46,734 bases of DNA from Flavobacteriaceae bacterium (GTDB lineage: Bacteria; Bacteroidota; Bacteroidia; Flavobacteriales; Flavobacteriaceae), in assembly GCA_013043005.1 (NCBI GenBank), contig JABDOZ010000161.1, positions 1-46,734 on the forward strand, read 5' to 3'. The notes under the pieces are model-generated. The model saw only the letters and a list, made by a program, of their open reading frames with translations. It made no database searches and was not told the DNA's origin. Numbering within the stretch: position 1 is the stretch's first letter; the number at the start of each line of letters is the position of its first letter. Positions 4,917 through 42,062 of this stretch are shown piece by piece. The position numbers and the translations under genes were made by a program.

Positions 4917-6131
4917 TTAATAAGGTGAGTTAAACCAAGATTCTTTTTTATAAAGATCTGTTCTGGCATTTCTGGCTCTGTTATAAAGCTTAAGGTGGGT
5001 TTCATCTACTTGCTTGCTTCTAAAACCAAATAAATGGAATACTTGCTTGGCAAAAAACCTGGCAACTTTCAGATCGACTTTTAATACATGCTTCCTTTTG
5101 TTTTCCCAGTGTATTCCAGGGAATAGAACTAATAAATTATCTGCCTTGGCCCTTCTTAAAATAGCAGAGAGCCTAAGAAATATTGGTTTTACTTTTCGAA
5201 CAATAAAAAAACCATCTTCTCCAATGTCTTGATATAACGGCATAAATAATATTCCCTTTTTTTTAGACCTAATTTCTTCATCATTGTTATTAGCAAGTAA
5301 AACTCCTTTTTTTATTGGTTGAAAACTCTTGAAGCCATTGAGCATTTTAAAATTATCGTTTTCTTTTATTCTGTGTAAGTGAACGACTTCATATATTTCT
5401 GAATGATTATTAGTTGCGTCAGCTATTTTATTGTAATGCTTATCAAAGTCTAAAATGCCTTCCTTTTTTAAAATCCTGGAAAAAACTAAAGCTAAATACA
5501 GAAAAGAGGCGTGGTAATTGATTGAGTTTAATTCATCGTGCTGACCTGATTCAAACCCAATAGAAACATACCCAAGCTGATTAATATAGGTCAATAGTGG
5601 TCCGTTTAAAAACTCTTCTATGCCTAATACAATTGGAACTGGAAACAGTTTAGAAAAACGTCTATTAATTAGTGCGTCACTTATTGTAACAAATGGCAAG
5701 GTTTTGCTAGATGTGGTGTGAAGGTCTATGAAATAAAAGGGGCCGGGGTTTAAAGAGATTATTTCATTTAAAAGGTCAAAAATTTCAGATTGCTCATTTT
5801 CCTCGGTATTTAATTCTTTTTTTCTGATAAGTTTTTCCAGATTTTCGAAAGTCCAGATCCTGTTCAAATCCTCATCAATAAATCTCTTATTTAATTCAAG
5901 GGCTTTTAAATTTCCTGATATTCCATATACAGATCCATTTAACTCACAATCCTCAATGCTTTTAAATACTTCCTGAATAGCAAATATTCCCGAGTTTTCA
6001 TTTCCGTGAATTCCGGCAAATATAACAACGGTAATTCCTTTTCTGTCCTCGCGTTTGCTAATTACTCTGCTTATAATAGTTGGTTTTTCCAGTGCCTTAC
6101 TATGGACTTCTGTCATATTATTAAATGTCAT
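4917..6131 (-). CDS. AstE/ASPA-type M14 deacylase (succinylglutamate desuccinylase/aspartoacylase family)
   Basis: Zinc-dependent N-acyl amino-acid hydrolase family, 404 aa. Visible motifs are the zinc pair in FAGIHGNENSG (HxxE), the substrate-binding DLNR in IDEDLNRIW, the third zinc ligand in FIDLHTTSS and the likely catalytic Glu in GFESGQHDE. The last 150 or so residues are an extra basic domain not seen in short AstE proteins. The start ATG lies inside the end of the upstream ligase gene (11 bp overlap), so translation is probably coupled; a second Met five codons in is an alternative start. Being paired with a GCS2 ligase suggests that it acts on the same amide product or precursor, but the substrate is unknown. 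It need not be a true desuccinylase, as no arginine catabolic genes are nearby. Confidence 0.85.
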   Translation of the reverse strand: MTFNNMTEVHSKALEKPTIISRVISKREDRKGITVVIFAGIHGNENSGIFAIQEVFKSIEDCELNGSVYGISGNLKALELNKRFIDEDLNRIWTFENLEKLIRKKELNTEENEQSEIFDLLNEIISLNPGPFYFIDLHTTSSKTLPFVTISDALINRRFSKLFPVPIVLGIEEFLNGPLLTYINQLGYVSIGFESGQHDELNSINYHASFLYLALVFSRILKKEGILDFDKHYNKIADATNNHSEIYEVVHLHRIKENDNFKMLNGFKSFQPIKKGVLLANNNDEEIRSKKKGILFMPLYQDIGEDGFFIVRKVKPIFLRLSAILRRAKADNLLVLFPGIHWENKRKHVLKVDLKVARFFAKQVFHLFGFRSKQVDETHLKLYNRARNARTDLYKKESWFNSPY

Positions 6132-7971
6132 TTGAAGTAATTATACCGATTAGTTGTCCTTTTTTTACAACCGGAATTCCATTAATTTTATTTTTTTTCA
6201 TTATTTCTTTTGCCTCATTTAGGCTTTTATTCTGAGAAATTGTAATAACATCTTTAATCATTATGCTTTTAACTGATGTGGTGATCATTTCTTTATCATC
6301 TAGAAAACCTTTAATATCTCTCCACGTTAATAAACCAATAAGTTTTTTGTTTTTATTTATGACAGGTACATGGTGAATGTTTCGCCATAACATGATATTT
6401 ATAACTAACTCTAAACTATCGTTAACCCCTACGGTAAAAGTATCTCGACTCATTTTGTGACGAACATTTTTATTTTCTTCTTTTAGTACCTGAATATTTT
6501 GATTTGTTGTGCTCCAGTTTGATACGGGTTCATCCTTAACTTGTTTCTTATAGATATTTGAAGTCAATATTTGAGAAGCTTCAAAAGGTTTGTTCTTTTT
6601 TAGCAGATTTCTATAGCATTTGATCATCCATTGGGATCCATTATTTGATTTTATTCTATTTTCAATAATCCCTAAATAATACTGAGCGTCTTTTTCATTT
6701 ACCCCGGCTTTTAATAATCCGTTAAATGCCATTGGAAGCAATTCATTAAAAATCAATTTATGGCTTGAAATTAGCTCGCCATCCCAAAAGAATTGTGTTG
6801 TCATACCGTATCGAGCTGCTTTGAAAAAGTTTAAATTAACATCCCTAAAATCCATCATTTCATGAATATTCTTATACTTTTCCGTTTTGCCCATCATTAC
6901 CCCTACCCAAAACACCATATTTGCTATTTCGTCAACAACTGTCGGACCAGAAGGAATATATCTGTTTTCAATTCTTAAATGGGGTTTCCCTTGTCCAACT
7001 CCATAACATACTCTATTCCATCTGTAAACAGTGCCATTGTGTAAGCTTAAGGCTAGTAATTTAGGGATCTCTCCTTTTTCAAGCATTTCAACACTGTCTT
7101 TTATGTATTCAGATGTTACAAGGCTTCTGAATCTGGATACGTTTTCTTTAAAAATATTAGATATACAACCTTCCTCCCATTTGCTTCCAAAACTGACCCT
7201 GGATTGTTTTTCGTTTAATAGAAATGAATTCGCTCTTGTATCGACACTTTGGGTAAATAATGAGATTCTTGTTTCGCTCCATAACTCCTTACCGAATAAT
7301 AATGGTGAATTTGTACATGCTGCTAAAATTGGACCTGAAATTGCTTGTGCCCAATTATATTTTTCGATAAACTCATCCGGATTTATCTGTAAATGCATTT
7401 GAAAACTTGTATTACAGCCTTCCAGCATAACAGAATCATGTAAAAAATTTAATTCATCAACACCTTTGATGTGAATATCAAATTCTTGTTTTCTTGACTC
7501 TACCAAAGCTTCATTCAGAACATAATAACGTTGATTAGGCGTCATATTTTTTATTGACATATGCTCTAAAGTGAGTGTTGGCAGTATACCTGTCAATAGA
7601 ATTTTTGTGTTCCGGGATTTAGTTGCTTTCCTTGCTTTATTTAGTAAAGTATTTAAGTTTTTATGAAGGGTTGAGAAACAGTCTCCTTTTAGCTCTAATG
7701 GGTCTAAATTTACTTCAAGATTAAAGTTTCCTATTTCCGTTGTAAAATGATCGTCCTTTAAGTCTTTTAACACATCTAAAGCAATTCCATTTGGCATAAA
7801 CTCATCATCTACCAGACAAAATTCCTGTTCAGCTCCAATACGTATTGGTGACTTTTCGAACATGTCCTCTTCAATCATTAGTTCTAAAGCCTTAATGTCT
7901 TTTAGCAACTGATGTATATAGCCCGCCTTTTCTTTAGGGGTAGTGAGTCTTGTAACTTTTAAAATTCCCAT
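6121..7971 (-). CDS. GCS2-type carboxylate-amine ligase fused to two CBS domains
   Basis: About 616 aa. Residues 25-430 or so look like the glutamate-cysteine ligase type 2 (GCS2) fold: IRIGAEQEFCLVDDEF, then TEIGNFNLEVNLDP, are the acidic metal/ATP-binding segments, and ENRYIPSGPTVVDE is a later conserved block. The C-terminal 120 residues are a CBS pair (VPVINKNKKLIGLLTWRDI and IPVVKKGQLIGIITSNDI), which normally binds an adenine nucleotide and regulates the linked enzyme. Expected chemistry is ATP-dependent amide bond formation on the side-chain carboxylate of a glutamate-like substrate; the amine acceptor is unknown. I prefer the ATG at 7971 (MGILKVTRL) over a TTG at 7995. It overlaps the AstE-like gene. 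It is divergent from rnpA across about 130 bp. Confidence 0.85.
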   Translation of the reverse strand: MGILKVTRLTTPKEKAGYIHQLLKDIKALELMIEEDMFEKSPIRIGAEQEFCLVDDEFMPNGIALDVLKDLKDDHFTTEIGNFNLEVNLDPLELKGDCFSTLHKNLNTLLNKARKATKSRNTKILLTGILPTLTLEHMSIKNMTPNQRYYVLNEALVESRKQEFDIHIKGVDELNFLHDSVMLEGCNTSFQMHLQINPDEFIEKYNWAQAISGPILAACTNSPLLFGKELWSETRISLFTQSVDTRANSFLLNEKQSRVSFGSKWEEGCISNIFKENVSRFRSLVTSEYIKDSVEMLEKGEIPKLLALSLHNGTVYRWNRVCYGVGQGKPHLRIENRYIPSGPTVVDEIANMVFWVGVMMGKTEKYKNIHEMMDFRDVNLNFFKAARYGMTTQFFWDGELISSHKLIFNELLPMAFNGLLKAGVNEKDAQYYLGIIENRIKSNNGSQWMIKCYRNLLKKNKPFEASQILTSNIYKKQVKDEPVSNWSTTNQNIQVLKEENKNVRHKMSRDTFTVGVNDSLELVINIMLWRNIHHVPVINKNKKLIGLLTWRDIKGFLDDKEMITTSVKSIMIKDVITISQNKSLNEAKEIMKKNKINGIPVVKKGQLIGIITSNDI

Positions 7972-11270: not shown

Positions 11271-11707
11271 TTTCTAACCATTGCTATATGTGGAATACCA
11301 TCCTCCATATATTCTTCACCAACCTGCTTAAATTTTAAATTATTGTAGAAATCTCTTAAATACGTTTGTGCTGAAACTCTAATTATTGTTTCTTGAAAAT
11401 GCTCTTTAACTGCATCAATAGAAGCATTCATGATTTTATATGCTAACCCTTTACCTCTTAAAGATTTTTTGACTACTACCCTACCAATACTAGCTTCTGT
11501 GAAATAATCTCCAGGTTTAAAAATACGTGTATATGCTATAATCTTATCATCTTCCAATCCTAATACATGAAGGGCTTTTCTATCTTTTCCATCAATATCT
11601 TGATACACGCAGTTTTGTTCAACTACAAAAACTTCAGATCTCAATTGAAGTAAGCTGTATAGCTCATTTGGAGTTAAATCTTGAAAATTTTTAGTATCTA
11701 CAGTCAT
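11267..11707 (-). CDS. GNAT-family acetyltransferase, ElaA-like
   Basis: 146 aa. The N-terminal LTPNELYSLLQLRSEVFVVEQNCVYQDIDGKD is the characteristic ElaA opening, and IGRVVVKKSLRGKGLAYKIM holds the acetyl-CoA pyrophosphate-binding loop (RGKGLA). A cytoplasmic N-acetyltransferase is expected; the substrate is not known for the family. It starts 5 bp after the CDF transporter gene and is the third gene of the rpiB-CDF-GNAT operon. Confidence 0.87.
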   Translation of the reverse strand: MTVDTKNFQDLTPNELYSLLQLRSEVFVVEQNCVYQDIDGKDRKALHVLGLEDDKIIAYTRIFKPGDYFTEASIGRVVVKKSLRGKGLAYKIMNASIDAVKEHFQETIIRVSAQTYLRDFYNNLKFKQVGEEYMEDGIPHIAMVRN

Positions 11708-11712
11708 TACTT

Positions 11713-12612
11713 TTAGTCTTGAACAATAACATCCTTACTGTCGCACTTCCCAAATTCTGGTTGAATGTTTACATGATTAATTTGAAACTTATCGAACAAT
11801 ATCAACTCAATTTGCTTTAAGATCTCGTCGAAATCTGAAAGTTTAATATCATTATGAAAATCGATGTGGGCCTCAAAATGTGTTTCTTCTTCATTTAACT
11901 GCCACAAGTGTATATGATGGACATTTTTAATTTCCTTGATAACGCTTAGTTCTTTAATGATGGTTTTAATATGTAGCTCATTTGGAGTAAATAACATAAG
12001 TACTTTAAATGACTCTTTAAACAAATCAAATCCTACCCATATTAGATATAAAGCAATTACTAAGGTTAATAAACTGTCAACCCAGAAAATCTCATAGAAT
12101 TTCATAAGTAATCCACCAATTAATACAGCCACAGATGCCATCATATCAGTTAATAAATGCAAATACGCAGAGCGCATATTCATGTTGACTTTTGAGTCTT
12201 TTCTAAGTAGTAAAACACTAAATCCATTAGCTAAAATTGCAATAAATGATAACCATATAACAAGACTAGATTCAATTTCCTGTGGAGTTATAAAACGCTT
12301 AATAGCTTCAATTATAAGTAAAATAGCAACTATTATTAAGGTAGACGCATTAATAAAGGCGGCAAGGATCTCAGCTCTTTTATATCCAAATGTTCTGTTA
12401 ATTGAGGCATCTCTTTTAGCTAATAAATTTGCTATATAGCTTATAATCAATGATATTACATCACTAAAATTATGAAGAGCATCACTAAGTAGCGCTAAAC
12501 TTCCGGATATTAAGCCTCCTATAATCTGAGAAACCGTAATTAAAATATTGAGGAGTATTGAAATTAACAGGTTTTTACCTTTTAATTCCTGCTGTGAATG
12601 TGAGTGAGTCAT
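11713..12612 (-). CDS. Cation diffusion facilitator (CDF) metal efflux transporter
   Basis: 299 aa, inner-membrane H+-coupled exporter of Zn2+ or related divalent metals. A short His-rich N-terminus (MTHSHSQQ) precedes six hydrophobic segments. SLALLSDALHNFSDV on helix II and HLLTDMMASVAVL on helix V carry the His/Asp residues that form the transport site, the HxxxD pattern typical of zinc transporters such as CzcD/ZitB. The C-terminal cytoplasmic metal-sensing domain has VHHIHLWQLNEEETHFEAHIDFHND. The start codon directly abuts the rpiB stop (TAAATG), so the two genes are tightly coupled although functionally unrelated. Confidence 0.92.
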   Translation of the reverse strand: MTHSHSQQELKGKNLLISILLNILITVSQIIGGLISGSLALLSDALHNFSDVISLIISYIANLLAKRDASINRTFGYKRAEILAAFINASTLIIVAILLIIEAIKRFITPQEIESSLVIWLSFIAILANGFSVLLLRKDSKVNMNMRSAYLHLLTDMMASVAVLIGGLLMKFYEIFWVDSLLTLVIALYLIWVGFDLFKESFKVLMLFTPNELHIKTIIKELSVIKEIKNVHHIHLWQLNEEETHFEAHIDFHNDIKLSDFDEILKQIELILFDKFQINHVNIQPEFGKCDSKDVIVQD

Positions 12613-39693: not shown

Positions 39694-40560
39694 ATGGCAA
39701 AAAAGGAAAAAGAAAAAAAATTCGCTAAAAAGCTCTTACACAAGTACCGTTTAGTAATATTAAATGAGGATACTTTTGAAGAGCGTTTGTCGTTTAAACT
39801 AACACGTTTAAATGTGTTTGTTTTATCTTCAATAATGGCGATTCTCTTAATTATAGCTACCATTATTCTGATAGCGTTTACGCCGCTACGAGAATATATT
39901 CCAGGTTATTCATCGACAGCTTTAAAATTGAAAGCAACAGAATTGAATTTTAAAACAGATTCTCTGCAGCAGGTTTTAGCAATGAATGAAAAGTACTTTA
40001 CATCAATTAAAAGAGTATTGCAGGGTGATGTTAGTACTGTACAATTTAATCGAGATTCAATTATTGAAGCTGCAAAACAGGATACCACTGAAATTGATTT
40101 AACACCAATTAAAGCCGATTCTCTATTGCGAGAAAAAGTAAGTAAAGAAGATAAATACAATTTGTTTGAGTCGGCAACAACTAATGCAAGCTTTGTCCTA
40201 TTTCCTCCTGCAAACGGTACAATTAGTGAAGAATACAACGCCGAAGAAAAGCATTATGCAGTTGATCTGGTAGTGGCAAAAGACTCACCTATTAAATCTA
40301 CTGCCGACGGGACCGTCATTTTTGCAGAGTGGACAGCCGAAACTGGTTTTGTGGTGATTATTGAACATAGCGAAGGCTTGTTATCTGTTTATAAACATAA
40401 TTCTTCCATAACCAAGAGTCAAGGCGATTTGGTTAAAGCGGGAGAGGTAATCGCCACTGCCGGAAACACAGGGGAGTTTACAACTGGACCACATCTTCAT
40501 TTTGAATTATGGAGCAATGGCTATCCAATTAACCCAACTAACTATATTGATTTCAAATAA
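39694..40560 (+). CDS. M23-family (LytM) peptidoglycan endopeptidase, membrane-anchored
   Basis: 288 aa. A basic N-terminus (MAKKEKEKKFAKKLLHKYR) precedes one transmembrane helix (about 45-68, VFVLSSIMAILLIIATIILIAF), then a periplasmic linker and the LytM domain (about 165-285). Zinc ligands are in HYAVDLVV (HxxxD) and GPHLHFELW (HxH), so the site is complete and the enzyme is probably active rather than an EnvC-type activator. It cleaves cross-link peptides in the cell wall. I chose the ATG at 39694 over a TTG just before it. Its stop overlaps the start of the GH3 gene (TAATG). Confidence 0.9.
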   Translation: MAKKEKEKKFAKKLLHKYRLVILNEDTFEERLSFKLTRLNVFVLSSIMAILLIIATIILIAFTPLREYIPGYSSTALKLKATELNFKTDSLQQVLAMNEKYFTSIKRVLQGDVSTVQFNRDSIIEAAKQDTTEIDLTPIKADSLLREKVSKEDKYNLFESATTNASFVLFPPANGTISEEYNAEEKHYAVDLVVAKDSPIKSTADGTVIFAEWTAETGFVVIIEHSEGLLSVYKHNSSITKSQGDLVKAGEVIATAGNTGEFTTGPHLHFELWSNGYPINPTNYIDFK

Positions 40561-42062
40561 TGCCATCCATAAAATCATCCTTAGCTAAACCCTTTGCGAA
40601 ACGCATTAAAAAGAAAGTATTAAAATGGGCCAGCAAACCGATAGAAACCCAGGAAAAAGTTTTTAGAAAACTAATCAAAAAAGCCCGAAAAACACAGTTT
40701 GGCAAAGACCATGATTTTAAAAGCATTAAAACACACCATGATTTTGTAAATAAAGTTCCAATAAGGGATTATGAAGCCTTAAAACCCTATGTAGAAAGAG
40801 TCGTTGCCGGTGAAGAAAACATCCTTTGGAAAGGCAAACCAATCTATTTTGCAAAAACTTCAGGGACCACTTCCGGATCAAAATACATTCCAATAACAAA
40901 GCCATCAATAAAAGCACAAGTGGAATCTTCCAGAAACGCCATTTTAATGTATATAGCAGAAACCGGAAACACAAGATTTGTTGATGGAAAAATGATCTTT
41001 TTGCAAGGAAGCCCGGTTTTAAAGGAACAAAACGGAATAAAATTAGGCCGCTTATCTGGTATTTCCGCCCATTACGTGCCAAAGTATCTTCAAAGAAACC
41101 GAATGCCTAGCTGGGAAACCAACTGTATCGAAGATTGGGAAACAAAGGTGGAAGCCATTGTAGAAGAGACGCTCCCTGAAAATATGACTGTTATTGCAGG
41201 AATTCCATCTTGGGTGCAAATGTACTTTGAAAAGATTCAGGAAAAAACCGGCCAACAAGTAGGAGACGTGTTCAGAAATTTTAACCTTTTCATTTTTGGA
41301 GGTGTAAACTATGAACCATATAGGGCAAAATTCCAGAATTTAATAGGCAGAAAAGTCGATAGTATTGAGTTATATCCGGCCAGTGAAGGATTTTTTGCCT
41401 TTCAGGACAAGCAGGGCGAAAAAGGCATGTTGCTTCAAGTGGATTCCGGTATTTTTTACGAATTTATAAAGGCCGATGAGTTTTTTGAAGAGAACCCGAA
41501 ACGGATTACTTTGAAGGATGTTGAGCTTGCTGTAAATTACGTGATGATCATCTCCTCTAACGCAGGGCTTTGGGCATATAATATTGGCGATACAGTTGAG
41601 TTTACATCAATAATCCCTTACCGAATAATAGTTTCCGGAAGAATTAAACATTTCATTTCGGCTTTCGGTGAGCATGTTATTGGAAAAGAGGTTGAAGAAG
41701 CTTTGCAAGACGGCATAGAGAACACCAGCATACAGGTTTCTGAATTCACTGTGGCTCCCAAAATAAACCCCAATGAAGGCTTACCTTATCACGAATGGTT
41801 TATTGAGTTTGAAAAGGAGCCTAATAATCTATCAGAATTAGCTGGTAAAATAGATCGATCATTGCAAAATCAGAACAGATATTACTACGATTTAATTGCT
41901 GGTAAAGTCTTGAGGCCTTTAATAATCACAATAGTGAAAAAAGAAGGGTTTAAAAACTATATGAAATCGATTGGGAAATTAGGTGGCCAGAACAAAATAC
42001 CCAGATTATCAAACGACAGAAAAATAGCAGATGTCTTGGAAAACAATAAATTAACGAAATAG
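40560..42062 (+). CDS. GH3-family adenylate-forming acyl-acid amido synthetase
   Basis: 500 aa. ATP-binding motifs of the ANL-related GH3 family are in order: FAKTSGTTSGSKYIPIT (about residue 100), ELYPASEGFFAFQ (about 265) and YNIGDTVEFTSIIPYRIIVSGRIKHFISAFGEHV (about 340-375). Plant GH3 enzymes conjugate amino acids to jasmonate or auxin through an acyl-adenylate; the substrates of bacterial homologues are largely unknown. The basic N-terminus has no signal peptide, so it is cytoplasmic. Start and M23 stop share one base (TAATG), so the two genes are translationally coupled. Confidence 0.9.
   Translation: MPSIKSSLAKPFAKRIKKKVLKWASKPIETQEKVFRKLIKKARKTQFGKDHDFKSIKTHHDFVNKVPIRDYEALKPYVERVVAGEENILWKGKPIYFAKTSGTTSGSKYIPITKPSIKAQVESSRNAILMYIAETGNTRFVDGKMIFLQGSPVLKEQNGIKLGRLSGISAHYVPKYLQRNRMPSWETNCIEDWETKVEAIVEETLPENMTVIAGIPSWVQMYFEKIQEKTGQQVGDVFRNFNLFIFGGVNYEPYRAKFQNLIGRKVDSIELYPASEGFFAFQDKQGEKGMLLQVDSGIFYEFIKADEFFEENPKRITLKDVELAVNYVMIISSNAGLWAYNIGDTVEFTSIIPYRIIVSGRIKHFISAFGEHVIGKEVEEALQDGIENTSIQVSEFTVAPKINPNEGLPYHEWFIEFEKEPNNLSELAGKIDRSLQNQNRYYYDLIAGKVLRPLIITIVKKEGFKNYMKSIGKLGGQNKIPRLSNDRKIADVLENNKLTK

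Follow-up and report, generated by a model that had tools for sequence, protein, structure and literature searches.

A conserved gene pair of a GCS2-CBS ligase and an AstE/ASPA-type hydrolase in Flavobacteriaceae and other Bacteroidota-group lineages: a candidate unit of amide synthesis and hydrolysis

Two neighbouring genes on the reverse strand of the DNA stretch analysed here (46,734 nucleotides, referred to as the window), which belongs to a Flavobacteriaceae-like assembly of 73.5% completeness, encode a carboxylate-amine ligase of the GCS2 fold with a C-terminal CBS pair and a zinc amidohydrolase of the AstE/ASPA type. Judging by sequence comparison this ligase-hydrolase pair is ancient and conserved, and the chance is about even that it forms a self-contained ATP-driven unit for the synthesis and hydrolysis of an amide, probably of glutamyl type, perhaps gated by adenine nucleotides. 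The observed basis of this reading comprises the folds, the intact key residues, the adjacency of the genes, their fusion in one lineage, and their co-inheritance. The features of the pair are as follows.

6121..7971, minus strand: GCS2-fold carboxylate-amine ligase with C-terminal CBS pair, 616 aa (ATG 7971, stop 6121)
6517..7971, minus strand: GCS2 catalytic domain, about residues 1-485
6124..6483, minus strand: CBS pair of the ligase, residues 497-616
4917..6131, minus strand: AstE/ASPA-type zinc amidohydrolase, 404 aa from the first ATG (alternative start 6116)
5190..6131, minus strand: amidohydrolase catalytic and C-terminal beta domain, about residues 1-314
4920..5189, minus strand: amidohydrolase C-terminal extension, about residues 315-404, predicted to be folded

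The start of the ligase gene is best placed at ATG 7971, where the N-terminus MG-x-L-x-V is common to the orthologues; a longer frame from TTG 7995 lacks support. The catalytic domain belongs to a remote subfamily: the window ligase scored 13.8 bits against Pfam GCS2 (PF04107, cut-off 21), and a Pfam GCS2 scan across the whole window genome gave no match because the subfamily is too distant. The assignment to GCS2 is made since the cut-off is exceeded by orthologues (L041 with 22.4 bits, L098 with 37.5 bits) and the predicted structure matches. The AlphaFold2 model (mean pLDDT 81, weak loops at 164-187 and 222-255) was superimposed on 1tt4 with Z 31.3 and rmsd 2.9 over 340 residues, on YbdK (1r8g) with Z 31.0, and on the plant glutamate-cysteine ligase 2gwc with Z 27.4. 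These relatives came from the structure search, while querying the PDB by sequence with a profile of the ligase returned chance matches and no true relative. No GCS2-type NCBIfam family was among the best 25 matches of the window ligase (E up to 0.00048), no GCS2-type equivalog was obtained for orthologue L098 at E up to 1e-4, and a phage search gave a CBS match only.

The GhExE motif, characterized as the ATP-binding motif of the GCS2/carboxylate-amine ligase superfamily (PMC7947786), is present in the window ligase as GAEQE (residues 46-50). Its G46, E48, and E50, together with E79, E86, Q191, H193, R235, E335, and R337, are invariant in 51/51 paired proteins, and for this reason the ligase is probably active. 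The window ligase shares with YbdK, 1tt4, and 2gwc the fold, the GhExE motif, and conserved acidic and arginine positions, but differs from YbdK and GCS2-type ligases in its CBS pair, its remote sequence, and a deacylase partner in place of gshB.

The CBS pair itself is recognized by Pfam at 2.6e-25, and each of its repeats is closed by a GxxTxxD-like motif (GLLTWRD and GIITSND). In the model its closest structures include AcuB bound to AMP, ADP, or ATP and other nucleotide-binding CBS pairs, which makes nucleotide sensing by this part of the ligase, as proposed in the initial annotation, plausible. Among the orthologues the motif is weaker in L040 and L041 and lost in L042 and L043. Since the CBS pair is missing in family f32 and its motif is degraded in the fusions of family f6, nucleotide gating is not essential to the pair.

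The hydrolase matched Pfam AstE_AspA_cat (PF24827) at 1.9e-17 and 63.9 bits (cut-off 25), and its model (pLDDT 90.6) gave Z of 20-23 to AstE, DoeB, ASPA, and CphZ. The zinc site HxxE...H and the catalytic glutamate (H42, E45, H138, and E194) are kept in 51/51 sequences, and R83, N90, and R91 are likewise invariant. The scores against the AstE equivalog TIGR03242 (49.8 bits, cut-off 305.65) and the aspartoacylase equivalog PRK02259 (56.4 bits, cut-off 180) fall far below the thresholds, so that a substrate different from those of AstE and ASPA is expected. With AstE, ASPA, and DoeB the enzyme has in common the fold, the zinc site, and the catalytic glutamate, and is distinguished from them by the extra C-terminal segment and by the ligase in its operon. 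This extension is real and is kept in only a part of the paired family: it is missing from L041 and from the AstE proteins encoded in the MATCAP clusters described below, and at about 320 aa the f38 AstE proteins leave no room for it; it is therefore not essential to the pairing.

The initial annotation, which was made from the sequence alone, had named both enzymes correctly, including the CBS pair and the extra C-terminal domain, and the structure prediction that it proposed for them matched the GCS2 and AstE/ASPA folds. Its statement that the two genes overlap is conditional on the chosen start of the hydrolase: from the first ATG (6131) the overlap is 11 nt, while ATG 6116 (MTEV...), which fits most orthologues better, leaves a gap of 4 nt after the ligase. 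RNA folding around the overlap was unremarkable (z -1.2), and promoter and terminator scans found no more than chance.

The survey of conserved neighbourhoods, which the initial annotation also proposed, demonstrated conservation of the pair well beyond the window. Full-length ligase was found in 14/60 order-level relatives with 39-67% identity, and in all 14 an AstE gene is the next gene downstream on the same strand. In one of them, L042 of family f6, the ligase and AstE are fused in a single ORF of 927 aa, while in L043, a relative of L042, the fused frame is apparently broken into two ORFs. In the L043 genome, and in this genome only, a class-I glutamine amidotransferase follows directly after the ligase-AstE genes (11530-12261). 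A search of genome contigs gave only three named near-complete relatives and one partial; the named near relatives are a Flavobacteriaceae MAG and Christiangramia species.

In a sample of 395 genomes from this one phylum, to which the depth search was confined, with the AstE subfamily called at E below 1e-60, the GCS2 domain was present in 116 genomes, the AstE subfamily in 59, and both in 56. The co-occurrence has a Fisher p of 1.7e-31 (relatedness ignored) and is partly owed to shared ancestry. Both genes are carried by 43/43 GCS2-positive genomes of f38, and adjacency recurs in f1, f6, f7, f14, f22, and f38, as well as in f32, where the direct neighbour of a divergent GCS2 without CBS is an AstE gene of weak similarity; 5/5 genomes of f19 carry both genes, at separate places. 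About 37 genomes, mostly of deep lineages, possess GCS2-CBS without a close AstE (among the families concerned are f28, f33, f36, f40, f44, f50, f54, f56, f62, and f66), from which it follows that the ligase can work without the hydrolase. On the ligase tree 7-8 changes between the paired and unpaired states were counted versus a shuffled mean of 26, which is the pattern that an old association, broken up repeatedly, would give, and the distance matrices of ligase and hydrolase correlate with r 0.84. Little else is conserved in the pair operons across families, which favours a closed two-step unit. A BLAST search with a GshB-like reference sequence, which a distant ATP-grasp could escape, found no ATP-grasp gene up to three genes away from the pairs.

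Similar arrangements exist with other ligases. In six relatives that lack GCS2-CBS, a GshB-like ATP-grasp ligase and a peptidase of the MATCAP type are encoded together with an AstE of this subfamily, which shares 34-37% identity with the window hydrolase. These clusters resemble the window pair in setting an amide ligase beside AstE or FGase, and differ from it in the ATP-grasp type of the ligase, the added MATCAP peptidase, and the lack of GCS2-CBS. In L044 (9666-13485), and also in L045-L049, a MATCAP/QEGLA peptidase, the GshB-like ATP-grasp (PRK12458), and a short AstE lie in one operon; in L171 (4569-8455) and across L170-L182 a FGase-MATCAP-GshB-like cluster is found in Flavobacteriaceae, in some cases with a second GshB-like copy. 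In f19 a related hydrolase is encoded beside an ATP-grasp ligase, and a protein of 478-479 aa is encoded next to the ATP-grasp and AstE-like genes (L188 5591-7027 and L189 5571-7010), the L188 copy having no Pfam or NCBIfam match. Another locus (L183 1653-10539 and L184 4946-13920), apparently a true glutathione locus, encodes a kinase-like-looking protein of about 1800 aa beside glutathione synthase and an EgtA-like GCS2. The common theme of the ligase-hydrolase clusters is that an amidohydrolase is encoded next to an amide ligase; in the window pair the ligase is of the GCS2 fold.

A search of papers for this ligase-hydrolase pair found no description of it; outside that search lies the work of Iyer et al. 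2009, reportedly a survey of amidoligase gene neighbourhoods. A later paper that cites the 2009 amidoligase survey describes how different ligases of this type are linked in operons (PMC4431377). The cyanophycin couple CphA/CphZ, a ligase with a dipeptide hydrolase, offers a parallel: CphZ-type enzymes of the AstE fold hydrolyse isodipeptides (beta-Asp-Arg/Lys) and complete the breakdown of a product made by an ATP ligase (PMC10206079); the window ligase, in contrast, has the GCS2 fold and not ATP-grasp/Mur, and no polymer or cyanophycinase gene was seen near the window pair.

Two thiol pathways can be considered for the pair. The nearest folds of the ligase, YbdK and plant glutamate-cysteine ligase, would suit a GshA that forms gamma-glutamylcysteine, to which a GshB-like ligase encoded elsewhere adds glycine to give glutathione, and a GshB-like gene (PRK12458, 459 bits, cut-off 408) is indeed present in 6/7 Flavobacteriaceae pair carriers versus 4/34 (phylum sample). 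Against this, a close GshB-like match occurs in only 2/43 carriers of f38 and 0/23 of f32, none was found in the window genome at its 73.5% completeness, and the GshB-like gene belongs to the cluster of FGase and MATCAP and is also present where GCS2-CBS is not. BshC of bacillithiol synthesis was detected in 45/46 carriers tested, the window genome included, and in five Chlorobiaceae, the family that f32 looks like in such traits as its CBS-less ligase and GC-rich frames, N-methyl-bacillithiol is present and glutathione is below detection (PMC6282198). The zinc deacylase, moreover, has no place in the glutathione pathway. Ordinary glutathione synthesis is thus unlikely as the role of the pair, in agreement with the initial annotation, although the link keeps some weight in Flavobacteriaceae, because most carriers there have a close GshB-like gene. 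The initial annotation had named gamma-glutamylcysteine formation with a gshB elsewhere as an argument against its own reading; a GshB-like gene was found in most Flavobacteriaceae carriers, in the separate FGase-MATCAP cluster, and was missing from most carriers in other families. Still less probable is a role in ergothioneine synthesis with the ligase as EgtA and the AstE-like enzyme replacing EgtC in removal of the gamma-glutamyl group. It is suggested by L081 (6869-14304), where EgtB, EgtD, two tandem GCS2-CBS, and AstE lie in one co-directional row, by EgtD two genes upstream in L118, and by overall co-occurrence with EgtD (p 1.7e-12, relatedness ignored). EgtD is missing, however, in 48/116 GCS2-positive genomes, including 20/23 f32, 8/43 f38, and 3/7 f1 carriers, the association within f1 is not significant (p 0.39), and congeneric genomes that lack EgtD (e.g., G176 and G321) retain the tandem ligases and AstE. 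Ergothioneine as the general role was rejected on account of the many carriers that lack EgtD.

Two further readings are about as improbable as the glutathione one. By analogy with RimK or tubulin tyrosination, the ligase could add glutamate-like residues to a protein or peptide and the AstE-like enzyme could remove them; the occurrence of the same hydrolase subfamily with MATCAP-type carboxypeptidase and ATP-grasp ligase in other Flavobacteriaceae is consistent with such tagging, as is the placement of Dop within the ligase fold by the structure search (Z 17.4). The nearest folds, however, are small-molecule ligases and small-molecule deacylases, and the vicinity of the pairs shows neither a conserved acceptor protein nor a gene for a small tag. 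Alternatively, the AstE-like enzyme may clear side products of a promiscuous ligase as metabolite repair with no purposeful cycle, in line with the ligase standing alone in many deep lineages and with AstE almost never occurring without GCS2 (3/59 exceptions). In these three exceptions, however, AstE lies near a GshB-like ligase, and the fusion and tight operon structure suggest an equal partnership of both enzymes.

The reading of the pair as an amide synthesis and hydrolysis unit can be set out in steps. In GCS2 enzymes a carboxylate group, usually the gamma-carboxylate of glutamate, is converted to an acyl-phosphate and then attacked by an amine, and AstE-fold enzymes hydrolyse N-acyl amino acids by means of zinc-bound water. 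The window ligase would accordingly turn a carboxylate into an acyl-phosphate at the expense of ATP, the gamma-carboxylate of glutamate being the likeliest candidate, and join it to an amine, yielding a small amide or isodipeptide; both the glutamyl identity and the amine partner are presumed here. The AstE-like zinc enzyme would hydrolyse an amide of that kind to return the building blocks (turnover), or trim the product, and the fusion and co-inheritance suggest that both enzymes act on the same compound. Because CBS motifs are present, nucleotide control of the ligase may be supposed, with the CBS pair probably tuning it to the adenine-nucleotide state. More tentatively, a glutamyl-type amide made by the CBS-gated ligase and broken down by the AstE-fold enzyme as a dedicated isodipeptide hydrolase could serve as an energy-regulated reserve, protectant, or signal in several Bacteroidota-group lineages. 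The pair, conserved in several of these lineages and fused in one, points to a metabolite probably overlooked by metabolomics. It is small and self-contained, and because cultured strains (Christiangramia) carry it, direct assays of both enzymes are within reach. Annotation would also be corrected, as such genes can carry the names of glutathione or arginine-catabolism enzymes.

The surroundings in the window agree with the initial annotation, which had noted no gshB, arginine-catabolism, or other pathway genes adjacent to the pair: its neighbours encode S8, M1, and S41 peptidases, a metallo-beta-lactamase-fold protein, and rnpA, and no thiol, arginine, or ATP-grasp genes adjoin it. The RimK-type ATP-grasp neighbours that were anticipated did not appear at the pairs, and the RimK of the window genome lies on another contig, C167. 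Directly downstream of this RimK, at 222-1148 of C167 in the window genome (G000; L021, L167), an AstE-like stretch was observed (E 3.2e-7), which makes a second ligase-AstE pair in the same genome. Elsewhere in the window, at 40560-42062, this bacterium encodes a GH3-family protein (PF03321), a member of a family that in plants comprises acyl amido synthetases.
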